Below the pieces are notes generated by a model. The model was not told the origin of the DNA and searched no databases. It saw only the letters and a list, made by a program, of their open reading frames with translations. A program made the translations under genes and the position numbers. 64,000 nt of DNA from Theileria orientalis strain Shintoku (taxonomy: Eukaryota; Apicomplexa; Aconoidasida; Piroplasmida; Theileriidae): assembly GCF_000740895.1 (NCBI RefSeq), contig NC_025263.1, forward strand, positions 1,550,001 through 1,614,000. Reading direction: 5' to 3'. Shown in pieces: positions 38,108-62,502 of this stretch (positions within the stretch are counted from its first letter, which is position 1; the number at the start of each line of letters is the position of its first letter).

Positions 38108-41100
38108 ATGCCAGTTTTATATCATTTGACTTTAAAGAAGCCAACAGGAATAACAACGTGTGTTCAAGGGAGCTTCTCAGCGCCGAAGGCCCAGGAAATA
38201 GTGGTCGCCCGCTCACATATTTTGGAACTATACAGCCTGGACTCTAATGGAAAGCTGCAAACAGTAGCGAGCGCCGAGGTGTTTGGAATAGTTAGAGCAA
38301 TTTCAGCCTTCAGATTGACGGGCTCACAAAAGGACTATCTGGTAGTTGGCTCAGATAGCGGAAAGCTGGTGATTCTAGAGTTTTCGTTGGAGTTAAAAAC
38401 ATTTAAAAGAGTACACTGTGAAACATATGGAAAGACAGGTGAGTAGTAGCTGTAAATGGGCGATGAGTGCAAGAATTCATAGATAATTGAAATTATAAGC
38501 CAAAGGGACTGAATAATGTACAGGTGTCAGAAGGATAGTGCCAGGACAGTACCTGGGAGTGGACCCGAAGGGAAGAGCAGTGATGGTGGGAGCAGTGGAG
38601 CGCCAGAAGTTCGTGTACATCATGAACAGAGACTCGAAGGCGAACCTGACAATAAGCTCGCCACTGGAAGCACACAAGAGCCACTCAGTGTGCTTTGACC
38701 TGGTGGGACTGGAGGTGGGATTCGAAAACCCAATCTTCGCGTCAATAGAACAGAGCTACGAAAACGTAGATAGCCTGCAAATAGACCTGGACGAGGAGCT
38801 GACGGACGAGGCACTGAAGAAAGGAGTGTCGTTCTGGGAGATGGACCTGGGCCTGAACCACGTGGTGAAGAAGGTGACGCTGCCAGTGGACCTGACTGCG
38901 CACATGCTGGTGCCGGTGCCGGGAGGACCAGGAGGAGTGATAGTGTGCTGCGAAAACTTCCTGGTCTACAAAAACCTGGATCACGGAGACGTGTACTGCG
39001 CATACCCGAGGAGGCTGGAGGTTTCGGAGCACGCGAAGCTGCTGATCACGAGCTACGCAGTGCACAAAATGAAGGACTTCTTCTTCATACTGCTGCAGTC
39101 GGAGTACGGAGACCTGTACAAAGTGGACCTGAACTACGACGATGCACAAGTTAAGGAAATAGTGGTGCGCTACTTTGACACAGTGGAGCTGGCGACGTCG
39201 ATGTGCATACTGAGGTCAGGGTACCTCTTCGTGGCCTCAGAGTTCGGAGACCACCACGTGTACCAGTTCACAGACCTGGGCAGCAACGAGAAGGACCCGA
39301 TGTGCACGAGTCTGCACCCGCACTCGAAGAGCGCGATCATAGCGTTTAAGCCGAGAGTGCTGCAAAACCTGTATGAGACGGACAAACTGCCGAGCCTGAG
39401 CAGCATAGTGGACATGAAGGTGGTGGACGTGATGGGCACGGGAGACTACGAGTTCATCATGGGCTGCGGAAGGTGGTACAACTCGCGCCTGAAGAGCCTG
39501 CGCTACGGACTGAGCACGGAGGAGCTGGCGTTCAACGAGCTGCCAGGGAGGCCGAGAGCAGTGTTCACAATAAAGTCGCTGGAAAGCAACTACGACGAGT
39601 TCATAATAGTCTCATTCCAAGGAAACACGCTGGTGCTCTCAATAGGAGAAGCAGTGGAGGAGGTGACGGACTCGTTCTTCCTGACATCGATAACGACGCT
39701 GCACTCGTGCTACATGAGTAACTACCACGCGACGGAGAGCCTGGAGGGAAGGTTCGAAGGAGGAGTCTCGGACGGGATATTCGTGCAGGTGCACGACAGC
39801 GGATTCAGGTACTCGCACGGACAAGTGGTGAAGGAGTGGAAGGTGCCGAGCACGAAGAGAGTGAAGTTGGCAGACAATAACCTGAACCAGCTGCTGCTGG
39901 TGCTCTCAGGAGGAGAGGTGGTGTACTTTGAGTTGGTGGACAACGACCTGGAGGAAGTGGCGAAGAGGAACCTGTCGACGGAGATCACGTGCGTGGCGCT
40001 GCAGCACACGCCGGCCTCGAAGGCAGGAGAGAGAGTGAGGAAGGGAGAGTTCTGCTGCGTAGGAAGCATCGACAACATAATCAGAGTGCTGAAGCTGGAC
40101 AAGACGCTGAAGATGTGCTCCTCGCAGCTGCTGAGCAACAACGCGCTGCCGGAGTCGCTGGCGCTGGTGACGGCGGAGACAGGGTCGGGATCTGGAGGAG
40201 GGAGTAGCGGAGGGCTGGGCGAGAGTGAGTCGTACCTGTACGTGGGTCTGAACAACGGAATCCTGATAAGAAACAACGTGGACAGCTTGGGGAACCTGAG
40301 CGACCAGGAAAGCAGGTTCATGGGCACGAAGGCAGTGAAGCTGAAGCTGGTGCACTACCTGCAGAGACAGTGCCTGCTGCTGATGACGACGAAGACGTAC
40401 ATCGTGATACCGAATTACCCGACGAACACGACGAATAACATGGAAATACTGCCGCTGCACCTGACGACGGGGAGCGGAGGAAGTTACGGAACGACGGTGG
40501 ACAGCATAGACACGTTCAACAGCCTGCTGTGCCTGAACGGGTTCGTGTGCATAATGAACAATAACCTGAAGATATTCAAGTGCATAGTTAACGACGACGT
40601 CTTCAGCGAAAGCAGCGTGGACCTGGACTACACGCCGAGAAAGCTGGTGCTGATGCCCTCGGAGGCGCCCTCAGCAGGCTCGCTCAACTACCTGCTGGCG
40701 CTGGTGGAGACGGACCACAACAGCTACAGCACGGAGCAGGCGGAGGAAATCAACAAGGAGTTGAGCAGCATAACGCTGGAGTCGGACTGCTTCGAGCTGA
40801 AGGCAGCGAAAAACTACAGAGCAGGACCAGGAAAGTGGAGTAGCTGCGTGAGAATAGTGAACCCGATGAACCTGGAGACAGTGGTGAAGCTGCTCTTCAC
40901 GGAAAACGAGGCAGCAACGACAGCATACACGTGCGTGCTGAACAATAAGCAGCTGCTGGTGGTAGCAACAGTGAAGAACGTGCACCTGTACCCGCAGAAC
41001 AAGGTCTACGGGTCGAGTGGAGCATCAGGGGCAAACGGATCTTATGGAAATTCGGGAATTACAGGAGCCAACGGAACGAATGGATCCAGTGGATCCAGTG

Positions 41101-42011
41101 GATTTTCGGGAAGCGACCAGGGCTACCAGGACAACGACGAGGTCGAGGGGTGCATAAGAGTGTACGAGTACAACTCGAACTACAGCAACCTGGCGACCTC
41201 AGGAATGAACATTAAGCTGCTGCATGTGACGAACACGAAGGGCTGGATACGCTGCTTCAACAACTACGAAAACAAACTGCTGCTCTGCGCAATAGGAACC
41301 AGGTTGAGAATGTACGCACTGGGAAAGAAGCAGCTGCTGCTGAAGGGAGAACACAGAAGCCTGACGAACTACGGATTCATGGATATCAAGGTGATCGGAA
41401 GCAGAATATACTGCGGAGACATAAGAGAAAGCGTGCAGCTGCTGAGAATCAAGTTCTACGGAGAGGAGACGGGAGAGTTTGAGATGACAGCGACGAGCAC
41501 GGGTCCGAGGTGGCTGTCGACGATGGAGCTCCTGGACTACAGCACAGTGATGGCGGCGGACAAGTTCGACTCAGTATTCGTGGCGCGAGTGCCGAACAAC
41601 GAGGACGTGGTGAGGAACAACTACTTTGAGTACCAAAACCAGTTCCACCTCTCGGACCTGGTGACCTCGCTGAGCAAAGTGAAGCTGAACAGCGTGTACG
41701 GAGAACTCGTGGTCTACAGCACGATCCTGGGCAGCCTGGGAGCATTCGTGACCTTTACGAGCAAGGACGAAGTCGACTTCCTGCAGCACCTGGAAATGCT
41801 CCTCGCAAACGAGCTGGACACGCTGAGCGGGCGGGAGGCGCAGATGCACAGAAGCTACTACTTCCCAGTGCAAAACGTTATCGACGGGGACCTGTGCGAG
41901 CTGTACTTTAACCTGAGTAGCGACCTGAAGGCGAAGATAGCGAACCAGCTTAACGTGAAGGTGGCGGAGGTGGTGAAGAAGCTGAAGAACATAAGAAACA
42001 GAGTATTCTAA
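38108..42011 (+). CDS. Splicing factor 3B subunit 3 (SF3B3/SAP130)
   Basis: Exons 38108-38438 and 38524-42011, about 1272 residues. The N-terminus (YHLTLKKPTGITTCVQGSF, QEIVVARSHILELY, VFGIVRAISAFRLTG, DYLVVGSDSGKLVILE) and the stretch after the intron (RRIVPGQYLGVDPKGRAVM, LTISSPLEAHKSH, VGFENPIFA) follow human SF3B3 closely. SF3B3 is a three-propeller scaffold of the U2 snRNP SF3b complex. The family also includes DDB1 and CPSF160, but the wording is SF3B3. It is a little longer than the human protein (1217); a Gly/Ser/Asn insert near 41010-41110 and another Gly/Ser stretch near 40185-40215 account for part. Coding GC is high with many CTG/GTG codons, unlike its neighbours. Confidence 0.93.
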
Positions 42012-47843: not shown

Positions 47844-50800
47844 ATGGAGAAGGACGGACTGTATTTGTTGACCATCGGTCAAATTTTGGAAAACACAAGA
47901 AATATATCAAATATTAGCCTGTATTATAATCGTATATCCCTAATAAATAATTTAAGACGTTATGAAAACAATTATTGCTGGGTACATGAGACGAGAAGTC
48001 AATTCAAAAAATTTACAGATACAGTTTCATGTGCATGTGTGGAACCTAAAAATGAGTTGGATTTAACAATTTTGACAAAAGGTTTTAAGTGTCCACAAGA
48101 ATGTTACGTGAGGAATTTGAGCTCAGAACTGAAAAATACGAACCTTATTGTAGATTTCAGCTCCTCACAATGCATAAGCATAATATACAAAGGGAGACTG
48201 TACCTATACAGCAACCTTTCGACGTGTAAAATGGTGAATAACATCACCTCTGAAAAAGAAAGCTCTCGAGGGATAATTTGCGAAGACTGTAAGATAGGAG
48301 AATCAGCTCTCTTCAGCAAGGAAGACATTGAAAAGGCCCTGTATGACATCATCGAGAGAGGAGAGGACCAGAAGTACGGGCTGACTCTCCTGGAACACAC
48401 GTCGCTCGGAAGCGCTCTATACGGACTCGAGAAGGTCCAGGACTCTGTGAAGTCAATAGGGATCCTGGAGGGTCTGATCGCAGACGAGCCTAAGCAGAGT
48501 GCGATAGACAAGATCAACGTGATCGACTGCGACATTCTCCTTGAGGACGTAAACCCAGCAACAATCAGATGCGATAGCCACGTCTCGTCGAAGCCGAAGG
48601 ACTGCAACAGCTGCAAGTACATCAGCGACCTGAACAAGTACCTAAACTCACCAATCATTAGCTACTGCGACCACAACTCGCCCAGCTGCGAGCACTCGAA
48701 CAACAGCTGCGACCGCAGCGTAAGCTCGTGCGACCACTCGCTGAGCGGAGGATGCGACCACATAGTAAACGCGTCGCTGGAGCCGCTCTCAGGAGGAATC
48801 GGCGAAGCTAACGTGATCACGTGCGACCACATGGCAGGAGAGTGCTATCACAGCGTGTTGTCGTGCGTTCACAGGTCGGAGTGCGAAAGGTGCAACGAGA
48901 GCTGCAACAAAGAAGACCACGTACACAAGGACCGCAAAATAACCGATCACGCTCACAACGAAGGCTGCAAATCTGACCACGTTCACAAGGAATGCAAAAT
49001 TTATGAAAACTGCGCGACCTGCCACTGCGCCAAGTGCCTGCACGCCTGCACCAAGTGTGAAGGCCCTGGAGAGCAAATTGTGAAGCTGAAGGAGGGAAAG
49101 CTGAGCCGCGATTACCTGCTGGAGTGCGTGAGGTACGCAAACGGCCTCGTGGAGAGAGCAATGGGAGAGCTGGAGTCGATCTGCTCCTCCCTGATCAACC
49201 AGACGAACGCAATGTGCCAGCCGCCACTTAACATATCAATCAGGTTCCTGGAGCACTTCCTGTGCTACGAGTACGCAGTGGAGTACAGCAGCGACGTAAA
49301 CCTCCTGAGCAAGGACAGCCTTTACGAGTTAAACGCGCTCGACAAGCAGAACGTGATCCTGCACGAGTTCATACAATGCAACGTGCTGACGAAGCGGGTG
49401 CTCGACCACACGTTCGACATCATCCTGGCGCGCATAAAAACGTACACGACGCCGAAGACGCAGAGCATTGGCGCAATGGATATGGCAGCGATTGAGGCCC
49501 ACACGGCCACTAAAAGTAAGGGTGAGTCCTCCGAGTTTAAGGGCGAGGACCTAATGAAGGACGAGCTGGACGAAATTGTGCCGCTTAACCTGGGTGAACA
49601 CCTGAATCAAATTGGTCACTCTCTGGAAGGAGCGACCCCTGACTCGTCAGGAAGGAGCACAGTGCTGGTGAGCGGACGCATAGTGTGTCAAACGACGGAT
49701 GGAGGAATTTTGGCAAACGCTGACATTGGCGAAAATGCCAATACCAGCTACGACACAGTTGCCGCAGACTACCAGCTCGACGGAAGGAAGGGAAGGAAGC
49801 GCGGAAAAAGTAAAAAGCCATTCAACAGCGTGCACGCCAACTACCAAAACGCAGAAGCCACGATAAACCACGCTTCTACAGCCAACGAGAGTGACGGAGC
49901 GGATGTGGCAGGAGATCGCATTCGTACCACAATAGCAGGGCCCGCAGGCCACACGTTTCATACAACGGGAGTGAAAGGAGAGCACGCGAAGGGCTTTAAC
50001 GGGAACGAGGAAGGAGTGCACACGAACGGAGTGTGTGTGGGATTGTCGTTCTGTGACGAATGCATAAACGAGAGCTCTGAGAGGATTGGATTCTCAAAAA
50101 TAGAAAACATGCTCTTGGGAGGCGTCGACAACAATGGAATTGGAGAAACGAGCAGAGATGACAGCAAGGAAGCTAGCGCAGACAGCGGAGAAGAGATGAC
50201 GGAGTCAAACGAATCGAACACTATGGTGACGCCGTCCTCAAGAAACGAGAGGTTCGGAGATGAACAAATCAACTCGTACGACCTGAACGACACGAAGCTA
50301 GTGTTCCCCGCCGAACTTAACATAGGATCCGACAACACAATTAACTCAATCCAGGACATATACACGGGTAGTCCAGGAACGGATCAGACGATGAGTGAAG
50401 ACAGCACGCACGAGTCTGACGGCAAAAACGGAGAAAGCGACCAGGACGAAGTAGCAGGCCCAGAAATATACCCATACTGGTGGACATTCTACGGAGAGGA
50501 TAACACGCTGGGCGAGGGAGACCTCAACGGACGCTACGAAGGAATCAGAAGGTTCACGCGCTCGTCCTACGTCAAGGACGAGGCGAGCACGCCGAAAAAC
50601 AAGAAGACGGGCAACGGAGCAAACTACCTGCTGACGAGGTGCGTGAGCTCGGACTTCAGCACGAAGTCGAACATCAACGTGTCAGGCCTGCACTCTAGCA
50701 GAGAGACACTATGCCCAAGCGAGTTCAACCAGTCGCAGTCAGACTCGTCGCCGAAGCAGCAATTATGCTTCTGCAAGACGTGCATACCCTTCATCTCGAA

Positions 50801-52160
50801 CATCACGAGAATATTCCCAAACGCAACAGCAGAGTTGACGCCGCGCACGGCCTCAATGGCCTCGTCGGCAAACCTGAGCTCGAGGTCCTCGAGCACCGGA
50901 AGAGGAGCGAGTCAGGAGAGGCTGCCGAGAGCAGGCGTCAACGGAAGCCCAGAGCTGACGCCGAAGACGGAAATCAACGGAAGCAGCCTCTCCCTCAACC
51001 TGATCTCGCGCGACTCGCGCGAGGAGGACTTGGACAAGGAGATGTCGATAGTAAACGGCCTGAGAAGGTCAATACGAGTGGCTCTGGACGTGGGCTCCGC
51101 AATCAGGAAGAAGATGAAGGAGGAGCACAAGCCGCTCATGGACACGCTCAACGTGGCGCTGCTCTCTAGTTTCAGGCTCGGCGAGTTCCTATTCAACAAC
51201 CCGAACATGTACGGAACGAGCGTGTACACGACCGGAAGCATCGAGCTTGACAACAGGTACGACTTTTTCGAAAAGCCCGAAGGACTCATTGAAAAGATAC
51301 GCCTAGGAGACCAGCAGGCAGGAAACAGGACGCCGGAGCTGGGAGACGGAGAGGCGAAGTCGGAGCGCGCGGAGGAGGAGATCGGAAACCTGCTCTGCAT
51401 CGACGTCGCAGTCGACGCAGTCGACACTGAGCGCAGCACCTTCGAGAGCGACCAGTACCTGGCCTACGACATCGTGAGCGAGGAGGACGCGTGCTCATAC
51501 AGCAGCCTCAGCTCAAGCAGCCCGAAGATGTTCAACAAGCGCAAGAGCCCGAGCCGCGCGAGAAGAACATACCGCAGCCTCAGCAGCTTCGACGGTCTGC
51601 CGGGCAGGCGCAGCTTCGAGGGACTGCCTACGAGCAGAAGAAGCACGCGCGAGCTGAGCCAGACTGACGACATGTACATCTACGACATGAACAACCTGAG
51701 CGACAAGGGCGAGTTCGACGACTGGTACGTCGACTCGGACTCGAGCAAGAAGAGCTCGAAGTACGCACACAAGAGGATGCCGCCCAGCAGACCCTCGGTC
51801 TCGAACCTGACCGAGATCTACGGAAGCCAGGACATGCTCATCCCCATGGGCCCGCTGCCCATCGGAGTCTACTTCGACGCGAGCAGGAAGCTGTGGCGCT
51901 GCCAGTGGCGCGAGAACGGCAAGTTCCGCACCAAGGGCTTCTCCCTCGGCCACTACAACACGCTCGCCGACGCGCGCCACGCGTGCATCCTCTTCAGGTG
52001 CCAGGTGGGCAACATGAGCATTCAGCCCGAGTGGCTGACGCCCAACTACATCAAGGTGAGCGACCTGCTGAACAGGCGCGCGGCGCAGCCTGCGGCGGCT
52101 CCGAAGAAGTCGAGCAGGAAGAAGAAGCGCCAGGAGGACCTGTACGAGTCGTACGCGTAG
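47844..52160 (+). CDS. ApiAP2 transcription factor with a Cys/His-rich region
   Basis: Single exon, 1438 residues, starting at the ATG of MEKDGLYLLTIGQ. One AP2 domain sits at the C-terminus (about residues 1341-1400): GVYFDASRKLWRCQW, GKFRTKGFSLGHY, DARHACILFRCQV. This is the ApiAP2 three-strand plus helix pattern. A basic tail (SSRKKKRQED) follows. Residues about 253-408 are rich in Cys and His, with repeated CDH, CEH and DHVH units (SCDHS, GCDHI, TCDHM, CYHSV, CVHRS), a possible metal-binding region. The middle is acidic and Ser/Thr/Asn-rich. The gene starts AT-rich and becomes strongly GC-rich in its 3' half. It is probably a sequence-specific regulator of stage genes. Confidence 0.85.
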   Translation: MEKDGLYLLTIGQILENTRNISNISLYYNRISLINNLRRYENNYCWVHETRSQFKKFTDTVSCACVEPKNELDLTILTKGFKCPQECYVRNLSSELKNTNLIVDFSSSQCISIIYKGRLYLYSNLSTCKMVNNITSEKESSRGIICEDCKIGESALFSKEDIEKALYDIIERGEDQKYGLTLLEHTSLGSALYGLEKVQDSVKSIGILEGLIADEPKQSAIDKINVIDCDILLEDVNPATIRCDSHVSSKPKDCNSCKYISDLNKYLNSPIISYCDHNSPSCEHSNNSCDRSVSSCDHSLSGGCDHIVNASLEPLSGGIGEANVITCDHMAGECYHSVLSCVHRSECERCNESCNKEDHVHKDRKITDHAHNEGCKSDHVHKECKIYENCATCHCAKCLHACTKCEGPGEQIVKLKEGKLSRDYLLECVRYANGLVERAMGELESICSSLINQTNAMCQPPLNISIRFLEHFLCYEYAVEYSSDVNLLSKDSLYELNALDKQNVILHEFIQCNVLTKRVLDHTFDIILARIKTYTTPKTQSIGAMDMAAIEAHTATKSKGESSEFKGEDLMKDELDEIVPLNLGEHLNQIGHSLEGATPDSSGRSTVLVSGRIVCQTTDGGILANADIGENANTSYDTVAADYQLDGRKGRKRGKSKKPFNSVHANYQNAEATINHASTANESDGADVAGDRIRTTIAGPAGHTFHTTGVKGEHAKGFNGNEEGVHTNGVCVGLSFCDECINESSERIGFSKIENMLLGGVDNNGIGETSRDDSKEASADSGEEMTESNESNTMVTPSSRNERFGDEQINSYDLNDTKLVFPAELNIGSDNTINSIQDIYTGSPGTDQTMSEDSTHESDGKNGESDQDEVAGPEIYPYWWTFYGEDNTLGEGDLNGRYEGIRRFTRSSYVKDEASTPKNKKTGNGANYLLTRCVSSDFSTKSNINVSGLHSSRETLCPSEFNQSQSDSSPKQQLCFCKTCIPFISNITRIFPNATAELTPRTASMASSANLSSRSSSTGRGASQERLPRAGVNGSPELTPKTEINGSSLSLNLISRDSREEDLDKEMSIVNGLRRSIRVALDVGSAIRKKMKEEHKPLMDTLNVALLSSFRLGEFLFNNPNMYGTSVYTTGSIELDNRYDFFEKPEGLIEKIRLGDQQAGNRTPELGDGEAKSERAEEEIGNLLCIDVAVDAVDTERSTFESDQYLAYDIVSEEDACSYSSLSSSSPKMFNKRKSPSRARRTYRSLSSFDGLPGRRSFEGLPTSRRSTRELSQTDDMYIYDMNNLSDKGEFDDWYVDSDSSKKSSKYAHKRMPPSRPSVSNLTEIYGSQDMLIPMGPLPIGVYFDASRKLWRCQWRENGKFRTKGFSLGHYNTLADARHACILFRCQVGNMSIQPEWLTPNYIKVSDLLNRRAAQPAAAPKKSSRKKKRQEDLYESYA

Positions 52161-57537: not shown

Positions 57538-59069
57538 ATGGAGGTACCTAGTAAAACAAATATAATTTTTAGGTCGATTGTAAGAAATGTTATAAAAATA
57601 TAAGCTCTAAAGATGGATTGTGCTCAGAATGTAGACTAAATTCAGACGAATCGCAAGGTTTTTTTGGAAAATTCAGCCACCTGTACAACACTATCCTCGG
57701 ATTAGCCCTTAAACCCAATGAAAACATAAATAACTCGAGATTTGATGAAAATTTAAAGGAAAATAAAAGACACGATGGGTTTTTCCGCAGAATAAAAAGT
57801 TTTTATAGAAATGTGGGCGAAGATGAGCCCGAAGAGTCGGATCACAGCGAGTCCACGAACATCGTGGAAACAAATGACCAAAATGAGGAATCTGCGGACA
57901 GAGATTGGTATATTCCAAGCATAAACCGCAACATGTCAATTGTGAAAAGAGTCACATGGGCGGACCAGGGCGAAGAATCGAGCAGCAACCCTGTCGATGC
58001 TGGGCCTGCGCAAGGGTCCTATTATCCACTGGAAAGCGGAACCAAATGGGATAGGAGCTTGAGCAGAGAAGCGAACGATGCCGAACAAGAGATTATAAGC
58101 TCTATGTCGTCGCTGGGCCTGCGCAGGATGGGGAAGGAATTGAAAAAGATAAACAAGGAATTCTCCAAATCGATGCACCTAGCGGCCAGACTAAAGGAGA
58201 AGCTGACCAAAAAAGACCACAAGCCCTGCGAGTACGACTACCTGCCGAAGGAGGGAGAAGGAGACAATAACCTGTGGCGCTTGAAGCCGAAGGACGAGGA
58301 GGAGTACCAGAAGCTGCTCTTCTTCAGAGAGGCGCCGCTCAGGAAGTACGGCGCCGAAGAGCTGAGTAGATCGATGGAAAGAGCAATGAACAGCAGAGGC
58401 AGGATCGTGGAGAGGTTCGGAATAGAGATAAACAGAATAAACATCAAGTGCCTCTTCGATACAAACTGGCTCAACGACGAGGTCATCAACTTCTACATGT
58501 TTATGCTGCAGGAGCAGAGCGAGCGCGCGCGGGCGAAGCAGCGGCTGCCCTCCTGCTACTTCTTCAACACCTACTTCTTCCCGACGCTCTGCGGATACGG
58601 AGTGCAGGGGTTGCACTACGACTACAGGTCGGTGGCGCGCTGGACCAAGAGGAAAAAGGTGAACGTGTTCGAAAGGGACCTGCTGATAGTGCCAGTGCAC
58701 GTGAACGAGGTCCACTGGGCGCTGGGCGTCCTGGACATGAGGAGGGGCTCGCGGAGGATCATGATATTCGACTCGCTGGGGGGGAAGAACCCGCGCTGGT
58801 TCAGGACCATCAGGCGCTGGCTGATCGACGAGCACAAGGATAAGCTGAAGAGGCCGCTCGAGGAGATCGGCGACTGGAGGATTCCGATGAACTACACTGC
58901 GGAGCCGTACGCGCCCCGCCAAAACAACAATTACGACTGCGGAGTGTTCCTGTGCCAGTTCGCGAAGGGCATAACGTTCGCCACGGGGTTCGGCTTCGCC
59001 AAGGAGTCCTCGCAGTACCTGAGGAACTCGATGGTCCACGAAATACTCAGAGCCCAGGTGGAAGTGTAG
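57538..59069 (+). CDS. Ulp1/SENP-type SUMO protease with N-terminal CxxC-CxxC motif
   Basis: Exon 1 is only ATGGAG (57538-57543); after a 29-nt intron exon 2 runs 57573-59069, giving about 500 residues. The first residues contain VDCKKCYKN and GLCSECRLN, a CxxC-x10-CxxC zinc ribbon-like pair. The C-terminal peptidase C48 domain has LFDTNWLNDEVINFYM, HWALGVLDM (catalytic His), MIFDSLGG (Asp) and NNYDCGVFLCQF (Cys). It is the Ulp1 type, which matures or removes SUMO. The middle is acidic and Ser-rich. Without the two-codon exon, the first in-frame ATG is about 100 residues later, so the tiny exon is inferred from frame and from the intact Cys pattern. Confidence 0.85.
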
Positions 59070-59409
59070 GAGTTACGACGCAGCTGCCGCGGAGATGAGC
59101 GTCAGGTATCGGGAGTTTCGCCAGCAGGTGACTTGCGCTAAGTAGCGGAGTCTTGCTCTGCCGACATCGGCCACCGCCGACCGTTGCTGATGGCATTCCA
59201 CTCAAAGTGGAAAATGTCGATGAATTCGCAGACTCAGGTGAATTGGGAAACGTCTTGGAAAAAATTGCGTGAATGTGTAAGGAGAAACCCCTGGAATCTC
59301 TACATGAATTGCTCCCCATAAGGAATCCGTAGTCTCAGTGAAAGAGAAGGTTCCAGAACCTTCTCAAGCAAATTTAATGAGAAATGTATATTCATGCGGT
59401 AAATAATTG
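59070..59409. other. Intergenic region with GC-rich start
   Basis: 0.34 kb. The first 150 bp keep the GC-rich composition of the protease gene, perhaps its 3' UTR; the rest is the upstream region of the hydrolase gene. No gene seen. Confidence 0.45.
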
Positions 59410-62331
59410 ATGTTTCACGCCAAAGCGTACGCAATTCTGTGTGTAATAATAAAATGTGTAGAAGCCGGTGAGGGAGCCGGCTTGGCGGAAGGGCGGCATG
59501 AAGGCGGGCTCGAGAGAAGAAGGCTCGACTACACGCCCGTGGAAATAGACTTGGACGCGAAAGTGGACGAAAACGAGGTCGAGTACCTCAAGGTGAGGCC
59601 GTACGACATCGACATTCGCCACTACAACCTGAGGGAGGGCTACAGCCTCGCGAGGGTGAGTAAGTCCGAGCAGGAGATTTGGAACAACTACAGGGACCAG
59701 GAGTGTGCCAACGTGTCGGTCGCGTACCAGGCCGACGCGCCCCTCCTGATGTGCGTCAACTGCGTTAACAGCTCAGGCGGCGACGAGCACTACTACTTGG
59801 TGAACGAGAACGGCCGGTGGCTCGGCCTGAGGGACCGGTCGTTCTACGCGGTCTTCAACCGCTTCTTCCTCGAGACGACCGTCAGCAGGACCACGGACCT
59901 GAACTTGCAGGCTGAGCTGCGTGAGGACGACTTCTACGTCAACAGGTCCCCCGACTTCCCCTTCACGGTGGTCGTCCCCAACGTGTCACTGCTGGTCAAC
60001 CGCCTGTACAGCGGCAACGACCTGATTTGGGAGTCGCCGTCCACGAGGCTCCTCTACGTGTCCCTGTTCAAGAACGCCGAAAAGCCCCTCATCTGCCTCA
60101 TCACCAGCAGCCTCACGCTCTTCTTCGTCAACGAGGGCCGACGGTGGCGCGAAATTTCTGAGTCTGAGTACGCCTGCGTTCTCAGGGAGCTGGGGGTGGA
60201 CCTCGCCAGCTTCGACAACTCCGTGGGCCTGGACGTCAGCAGTCCAGACAGCGAGCGCTTCCTCGTCACCTCCTTCGGGTCCGACCTCGTGTACTTCCGC
60301 AAGTGCAGCCCTCGCCCGGGCCTGAGGCTGACGATCGTGCGCGACTCTCAGGCGCCCAGTCGCCACGGCCATGAGGCCGGCAACCTGGTGTGGTCCTCCC
60401 CCCCCTCGTCCTCCGACCACTGCGTCTACGTTGGAATCAACATCATGGATGGCGTGCCCTCTCTGATGAACCTGTATATCAAGAACCACCGCGGCGACCA
60501 CAGGGTTGAGTACTTCGTGCGCGTCCACGACGGCTCGTGGGCCTCTATCACCGAGTCTGAGTACTTCTACGTGATGGAAAACAATAAGATGCCCGCCGAG
60601 TCGCCGAAGCGCATAAACCCTGCTCTGCTGAGGAGCCACTTCAGGAACAAGCAGGGCCTGCTCATCCAGACCTACTGTTCAAGGGCCCAGAACACAGAGG
60701 ATCAGGGCCCCGAGGCCCCCAATGATCAGCCGGCCAACGGCGATGGTCCTCACACACACGCGCACAAGTCCAGGGGCGCCTTCATTCTCGTTCACGGAAA
60801 CCGCGAGTACTTCGTCTCCAACTTCCTCAACAGCGAGACGCTCTGGAACTTCAAGAACTTCGGCTATCCCGCATTCCCAACCATTAACGCGGTCAGCGAC
60901 TTCGAGCTCATGGGCTCCAAGAGGGCCGACGTCCTTGGCAAGTTCGACGAGCTGTTTTCGCCTAATCTTAGCAGGCCCTCCCACTCAGGTTCAAACGCCT
61001 TAAATAACCAGAATGTGCCCCCCAGCCTCGTTGAGACTCCGCTGGGCCTGCAGAGGTTCCACTACGAGTGCAGTCTAGTCGGCGCCCTCAATGAGATGGG
61101 CTTCGACGTCTACGGAATGGACATGCAGTCCTTCGGACTCTCCGAGTCTGTCTCAGGTTCCAGGTGCTACGTCGACAGGTTCGACGACCTCGTCGACGAC
61201 CTTCTCCAGTTCGTGGACATCGTCAAGCGCGGCAAGTTCTCCGACAAGGGCCAGTCCTGGTACCCCGACGTCTTCTCCATGGGCACTGAGCTCCTCAACG
61301 ACAACCTGTTCCTGCTGGGCTACTCCATGGGCGCCAACGTGGTCCTCCAGGCTGCCCAGAAGTTCAACAGAGACACTGAGGGCCCTTTCAACTTCGTGAA
61401 CGGAATCGTGTCGCTGTCTGGCATGATTGATATGGACAAGAACTTCTCCAACGTCTTCGACAAGACCTTTTCAATGATGGCTCTGAATGTTCTGAACGCC
61501 GTTGTTCCGCACGCCGAGACTAATAAAGGTTCATACGACGACTGGACTAAGAAGATGAGTGACTACCAAAAACTATGTGTAGGTCTTTGCTTTAAATATA
61601 CATTTAATCAGTTTCAAACACTTAGCTATCTTTTTAACTTATGACTAATAAAAATTCAGGACGGCTTCTACTTTAGCAAGAACTACTCCTTCAGAACAAT
61701 ACATGAGATGTTTAAGGCCACAAAAAATTTGAAGAGTGGAATGCGTTATTATCCTGGTAACATGCCAACTCTCTTTGTGCACTGCGAAAAGGATCCCGTA
61801 TGCTCAATTGAGGTAAGAATTATGTAGCCTCCACCGTGTATTAAGCTAGCTATTTACCTTTCATGTATGTAGTTATCCAACACTAATGATTAGCTAGCCC
61901 AAATACAGTTAATTAGCTTGATATAATAATGTATTCGTAACAATGGCACTCTAATACTAGTGCAATTGTCACTAATTATTACTTAGGGACCCAAAAAGAT
62001 TTATCACGAATACATCAAAAACAACCCTTACAGCGAGTTCATTGAGCTCAAGGGCAACTCACATGAAACCCCTAGCCCGCTGTTTATGTACAACTTTTTA
62101 AACGAACTTAGAGCGTGGATTGGCGTTGTGTCATCTCACAAACAACCAACTCCACCTAGGTCAGGACCTATCGGAAAGAGCTCGGTCTGGAACATGATAG
62201 AGATAGTTTTATATGTTTTAATTGGATCGGTCTTAAAGACGATCCTCATAGTACTTGTGCTCAAGTACAGGAAGAAGAAAAAGAGGAATGTAGAACGATT
62301 AGTCGACAACGTGGATTGCATTGTACATTAG
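59410..62331 (+). CDS. FAINT-like repeats fused to alpha/beta hydrolase with C-terminal anchor
   Basis: Exons 59410-61578, 61660-61812 and 61987-62331, about 888 residues. A signal peptide (MFHAKAYAILCVIIKCVEAG) is followed by three diverged repeats (about residues 30-400). Each ends in a strand and WxxI/WxxL motif (YYLVNENGRWLGL, LFFVNEGRRWREIS, YFVRVHDGSWASIT) and has an IW or VW-S core, as in Theileria FAINT (DUF529) domains. The hydrolase part has AFILVHG, FDVYGMDMQSFGLSE, the nucleophile elbow GYSMG (Ser639), CEKDPVCS (Asp768) and GNSHE (His800), like monoglyceride lipase or lysophospholipase. A hydrophobic segment (MIEIVLYVLIGSVLKTILIVLVL) with a KKKKKR-like tail ends the protein. Likely a surface or secretory-membrane lipase; substrate unknown. 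Confidence 0.72.
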
Positions 62332-62391: not shown

Positions 62392-62502
62392 GGTATGGTT
62401 ATATATGTGTATGTTGGTATGGTTATGTGTGTATGTTAGTATGGTTATGTGTGTATGTTAGTATGGTTATGTGTGTATGTTAGTATGGTTATGTGTGTGT
62501 AT
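62392..62502 (+). repeat. 22-bp tandem repeat
   Basis: About five units of gtatggttatgtgtgtatgtta, the first slightly changed, between the hydrolase gene and the next minus-strand gene. Probable length-variable minisatellite. Confidence 0.85.

Follow-up and report, generated by a model that had tools for sequence, protein, structure and literature searches.

A gene joining FAINT units to a hydrolase domain

Within a window of 64,000 nucleotides (the whole stretch of DNA analysed here) from Theileria orientalis strain Shintoku (C4:1550001-1614000; the genome searched comprised 6 contigs and 9,010,364 bases), we studied a three-exon gene (59410-62331, plus strand, in window coordinates) which, after splicing of two short AT-rich GT-AG introns, yields a protein of 888 residues. 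The protein carries three predicted units of the FAINT (DUF529) domain followed by an alpha/beta hydrolase domain, with a signal-like stretch at its N-terminus and a predicted membrane helix near its C-terminus. A sequence-only reading of the locus had proposed this architecture, including an intact Ser639-Asp768-His800 triad, as a single gene and as an undescribed type of protein. A single open frame of 745 codons (59407-61644, plus strand) contains the FAINT units together with most of the hydrolase, including the nucleophile; when the surrounding 4 kb was base-shuffled 200 times, no plus-strand frame exceeded 232 codons. The two parts hence do not represent two genes, and the claim of a single gene is borne out.

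The two-intron splicing is consistent with the deposited T. orientalis orthologs P0002 (888 residues, MACK_002577) and P0003 (882 residues, MACJ_002724), both of which align to the window protein over its full length and presumably come from the Buffeli and Chitose genomes. The deposited Shintoku model P0001 (871 residues) is identical to the window protein except for a gap of 17 residues; since both orthologs retain these residues, P0001 probably treats 51 coding bases as a false intron. The features of the gene are as follows.

59410..61578, plus strand: exon 1 (residues 1-723), with the signal-like N-terminus, the three FAINT units and the first part of the hydrolase including the nucleophile (open frame and splicing; deposited P0001-P0003)
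59410..59469, plus strand: signal-peptide-like N-terminus (MFHAKAYAILCVIIKCVEAG; hydropathy, and helix 2-18 in the P0002 model)
59533..59880, plus strand: FAINT unit 1 (residues 42-157; 18.4 bits alone; predicted beta strands followed by a helix)
59887..60195, plus strand: FAINT unit 2 (residues 160-262; 15.2 bits alone; predicted fold)
60214..60594, plus strand: FAINT unit 3 (residues 269-395; 15.7 bits alone; predicted fold)
60622..62136, plus strand: alpha/beta hydrolase domain of the monoglyceride-lipase type (residues 405-824; introns lie within the span)
60892..60942, plus strand: in-frame coding stretch of 51 nt (17 residues), absent from P0001 and present in both orthologs (alignment with P0002 and P0003)
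61324..61326, plus strand: catalytic Ser639 (GYSMG), aligned with Ser122 of human monoglyceride lipase (MGLL) in the triad alignment
61579..61659, plus strand: intron 1 (GT-AG, 81 nt, phase 0, before Asp724; spliced model, same position in modelled paralogs)
61660..61812, plus strand: exon 2 (residues 724-774), with catalytic Asp768 (spliced model)
61792..61794, plus strand: catalytic Asp768 (EKDPVC; triad alignment, MGLL register)
61813..61986, plus strand: intron 2 (GT-AG, 174 nt, phase 0, before Gly775; spliced model, same position in modelled paralogs)
61987..62331, plus strand: exon 3 (residues 775-888 and stop), with catalytic His800, the transmembrane helix and the basic tail (spliced model)
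62062..62064, plus strand: catalytic His800 (GNSH; triad alignment, MGLL register)
62191..62268, plus strand: C-terminal transmembrane helix (residues 843-868), followed by a basic tail (hydropathy 2.68 over 19 residues; helix 840-868 in the P0002 model)

The hydrolase profile scores well above its cut-off (PF12146, Hydrolase_4: 83.0 bits, cut-off 27), the predicted fold is of the monoglyceride lipase type, and the Ser-Asp-His triad falls in register with that of MGLL. We found this triad in all 45 aligned hydrolase domains (26 from FAINT-bearing proteins, the window protein being one row, together with 10 from FAINT-less piroplasm or unnamed proteins and 9 from Plasmodium), in an alignment whose rows were cut around the serine motif and from which four fetched rows (two duplicates and two truncated) were excluded. 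In an uncut alignment of 29 rows it is present in 28, the single exception being a wrongly joined model, and in a 24-row alignment with a mean column identity of 40% the triad residues are among 26 invariant columns. Both the hydrolase and its intact triad, as proposed from the bare sequence, are thereby confirmed.

The FAINT assignment likewise holds, as PF04385 scores 32.1 bits for the whole protein and 40.5 bits for its N-terminal part alone, in three stretches (cut-off 20.7), which rules out a lack of DUF529 similarity. That the copies number three, as counted in the sequence-only reading (a number that does not define the family), is suggested by the predicted fold and by FAINT being the best family for each unit; scored singly, all three units stay below the cut-off. 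In the AlphaFold predictions (mean pLDDT, the predicted local distance difference test, 74.4 for ortholog P0002 and 86.4 for the FAINT part of the window protein) three similar series of beta strands are each closed by a helix, giving units of about 100-125 residues as compared to the 78 positions of the Pfam model. Each closing helix opens with a tryptophan and an aromatic residue eight positions on (residues 137-145, 246-254 and 377-385); as this pair lies beyond the Pfam match in every unit, the Pfam model may cover just the first part of the real domain. A FAINT scan of the whole genome had 426 candidates, and its 150 best, the ones scored, include neither this gene nor any other place in the window, which indicates that the FAINT units of the gene are divergent.

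The surroundings look like those of ordinary cellular genes: the 9 window frames scanned include an adjoining Ulp1-type SUMO protease, an AP2-domain protein and a DDB1/CPSF1-like protein (ordinary-looking genes at 57618-59069, 47844-52160 and 38538-42011). In the raw sequence, a short tandem repeat (TATGTTAGTATGGTTATGTGTG-like) lies just 3' of the gene, at about 62395-62500.

A multigene family in Theileria

The window gene is one member of a Theileria multigene family and not a one-off. A search of the genome with the profile of the Plasmodium PST-A lysophospholipases (TIGR01607) yielded at least 16 exon-level matches at no fewer than seven loci, none above the cut-off, and FAINT accompanies the hydrolase at six of the seven (the window gene, C3 298k, C1 2614k, C1 2653k, C3 1437k and C4 1981k). 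At C1 2614k and C4 1981k the evidence for FAINT consists of scan matches in the same open frame, and at C4 1981k the linking of the FAINT frame to the hydrolase frame depends also on a modelled splice; at the seventh locus, C1 1661k, no FAINT was found. Other PF12146 matches in the genome (e.g. C2 1311k, 43.7 bits) do not match PST-A. In the modelled splicing, both introns occupy the same places in all seven loci, and as the junction search was guided by homology these shared positions are consistent, rather than independent, evidence.

In the protein database, FAINT-hydrolases are present in T. orientalis (three genomes), T. annulata (P0005) and T. equi, the last with at least 17 proteins that have both domains in precomputed Pfam lists (P0006-P0017 and P0019-P0023) in addition to the truncated P0032. 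The copies found thus amount to at least 17 in T. equi, six in T. orientalis and one in T. annulata. Alignment A2 has FAINT in 22 of its 24 members and Hydrolase_4 in every one. Hydrolase relatives devoid of FAINT are found in T. annulata, T. parva, T. orientalis, T. equi and Babesia; those of Plasmodium are more distant. In the tree, the FAINT-bearing rows cluster together, with moderate support (89/66, or 91/84 for the 23 rows left without three long branches), and the Plasmodium rows are set apart (100/100); a different topology, in which the window clade groups with the FAINT-less enzymes of Theileria, survives the approximately unbiased test (p 0.054). The simplest reading of these relationships would be a single FAINT-hydrolase fusion followed by expansion.

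Two neighbouring paralogs about 40 kb apart, L042 (C1 2653k) and L043 (C1 2614k), are unevenly alike. Over alignment columns 40-520 (the FAINT units and the N-terminal part of the hydrolase) they are 93-100% alike in 10 of 12 blocks of 40 columns (45% and 80% in the other two), and over columns 520-760 (nucleophile, Asp and His) only 28-47%; at the DNA level they match at 93.9% over 1.5 kb, with no BLAST match beyond. This looks like gene conversion or a mosaic in which the catalytic halves were kept different. Two further FAINT-hydrolases, L046 (C4 1981k) and L044 (C3 1437k), are very divergent, with long low-complexity inserts around or inside the hydrolase, and keep the triad as modelled.

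As to earlier reports, we found no description of FAINT repeats combined with a hydrolase in the literature searched, which did not cover subscription papers. In the main text of the papers examined on Theileria or apicomplexan gene families, the sole mention of a hydrolase or lipase is that of a haloacid dehalogenase-like hydrolase family (PMC2826314); in the subset also searched for 'lysophospholipase', the sole mention is a table entry in PMC5921998. This entry, a 'putative lysophospholipase' with PF12146 (XP_009692660.1; mean ratio of non-synonymous to synonymous substitution, dN/dS, 0.129), is listed among predicted T. orientalis surface proteins and lies outside the six confirmed by mass spectrometry in that study; it may be the window gene. 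Database entries for proteins with both domains are named 'conserved hypothetical', 'hypothetical' or 'Serine aminopeptidase S33 domain-containing'. The proposal of an undescribed protein type therefore survives in part: a known module and a known enzyme class are joined in a combination that is, as far as searched, undescribed, yet the domain pair already stands in databases under uninformative names and belongs to a family rather than to a lone protein.

Proposed topology and activity, and rival explanations

The putative signal peptide and transmembrane helix were called from hydropathy and from the model of ortholog P0002. Of the secreted, membrane-anchored protein suggested by the sequence-only reading, the signal-like N-terminus and the C-terminal membrane helix find support on this basis. 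A hydrophobic N-terminus (best 10-residue hydropathy above 2) is present in 16 of the 26 FAINT-bearing rows (1 further row is cut N-terminally). A strongly hydrophobic C-terminal segment (above 2.6) is restricted to the window protein and its two orthologs (3 of 45 rows; all other rows reach 1.42 at most), and the window gene consequently looks like a membrane-anchored version within a family otherwise without such an anchor.

We propose, with a probability of about one half, that the protein is a secreted, surface-anchored monoacylglycerol lipase or lysophospholipase, i.e. a catalytically competent serine hydrolase whose FAINT repeats position it at the host interface, where it would scavenge host lipid. 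The N-terminal signal would take the protein into the secretory pathway, where, as a type I membrane protein, it would be held by its C-terminal helix with the basic tail in the parasite cytosol, leaving the three FAINT units and the hydrolase outside the parasite or within a secretory lumen. The catalytic domain would be exposed on the outer face of the parasite, with the FAINT units (as spacer, adhesion or positioning modules) placed between membrane entry and enzyme; because Theileria lies free in the cytoplasm of its host, host material is what the enzyme would meet. Cleavage of monoacylglycerol or lysophospholipid would then deliver free fatty acid for uptake. Relatives in Plasmodium lend support to both the chemistry and the place. 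The PST-A member PfPARE has a Ser-Asp-His triad and esterase activity (PMC5263872); in P. chabaudi the PST-A lysophospholipases have expanded, and two of the five P. berghei members show evidence of export (PMC4242472).

Several observations weigh against this proposal. In the PDB, the sequence matches MGLL weakly (22 bits, with an E of 0.0046 when just the matched stretch is considered), and the PST-A profile gives P0001 128.8 bits (E 2.3e-37), short of the curated cut-off of 218.25; judged by this score, the window hydrolase is distantly homologous to PST-A and outside the curated family. The signal-like stretch is short and contains a lysine, and a hydrophobic N-terminus is missing from the models of 9 of the 26 FAINT-bearing rows, so that either only part of the family is secreted or the models lack first exons. 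PfPARE is itself cytoplasmic and acts on varied esters (PMC5263872). FAINT, moreover, is not in itself an export signal, given that the T. annulata FAINT protein TA11945 remains inside the parasite (PMC11237503). Data on expression, activity or location were not found for the window gene.

The retention of TA11945 also favours an explanation which we hold to be rather unlikely, namely that the protein is an active lipase working within the secretory system of the parasite itself (endoplasmic reticulum, a rhoptry or spherical-body-like organelle, or the inner face of a vesicle), where it would remodel the parasite's lipids, not take host lipid as substrate and use FAINT as an internal structural spacer; the membrane anchor, which would hold the protein on a parasite membrane, also fits this. 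It sits less well with the over-representation of FAINT proteins among predicted secreted proteins (PMC3505731) and with the expansion in T. equi, which would be more like an interface role than housekeeping. A serine hydrolase of other specificity (carboxylesterase, acyl-protein thioesterase or acyltransferase) in place of a lipase we consider unlikely. Dead enzyme folds are kept in many surface families, and on that general ground the protein could be a pseudo-enzyme retained for binding, with FAINT as its working part; the triad, intact in all 45 rows (26 of them FAINT-bearing) and placed among the invariant columns described above, makes this improbable indeed. Finally, the probability of an artefact (two adjoining genes mistaken for one, or an open frame arisen by chance) is negligible, as nothing was found in its favour, both parts share the 745-codon frame and the architecture recurs in three T. 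orientalis genomes, in T. annulata, in T. equi and at further Shintoku loci.

A wider reading is possible rather than probable: a piroplasm-specific family of host-facing lipases, in which an ancestral PST-A-like hydrolase gained FAINT repeats (as positioning or lipid-presenting modules) and then multiplied. Such an expansion would parallel the separate one of PST-A lysophospholipases in Plasmodium, and as piroplasms lack fatty acid synthesis (PMC3505731), such enzymes could plausibly help to feed these parasites of cattle and horses and make a target for drugs. It would furthermore provide the first direct biochemical handle on FAINT, a domain with no assigned function found in more than 100 proteins per Theileria genome: adjoining an enzyme, it offers activity and inhibitors testable by standard lipase and activity-probe chemistry and thus a lead on its role, and the contrast in copy number between T. 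equi, T. orientalis and T. annulata is a ready comparison.

Comparison with known systems

The PST-A lysophospholipases of Plasmodium resemble the window protein in having a homologous hydrolase (E 2.3e-37), the same triad and a multigene family, of which some members show evidence of export into the host red cell, and differ from it in that the nine rows (409-493 residues) have no FAINT listed and no hydrophobic C-terminal helix. To the monoglyceride lipases (human MGLL and Mycobacterium tuberculosis Rv0183) the window hydrolase shows an identity of about 15-20%, and is distinguished from them by longer inserts and by the added FAINT units and membrane anchor. The nearest FAINT-less hydrolases (P0024 of T. 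annulata, P0027 of T. parva, the 'acylglycerol lipase' P0025/P0026 of T. orientalis and a Babesia 'lysophospholipase') keep the triad intact but, unlike the window protein, have neither FAINT in precomputed Pfam lists nor a hydrophobic C-terminal helix; a FAINT scan of P0025, P0027, P0028 and P0030 gave no match at E <= 1.

FAINT domains themselves are reported from 142 T. orientalis Shintoku proteins (PMC9323827) and from 271 proteins in T. equi (PMC3505731). The latter paper states that they are not reported for B. bovis; as the SBP3 proteins of B. bovis and B. orientalis contain three FAINT domains (PMC5870374), the domain is not strictly limited to Theileria. With the FAINT proteins of piroplasms (SVSP, TashAT, SfiI-related, p104 and Babesia SBP3-like), most of which have a signal peptide, the window protein shares its repeats; in contrast to these proteins, for which the text consulted describes no enzyme domain, the family to which it belongs ends in a lipase-type hydrolase.
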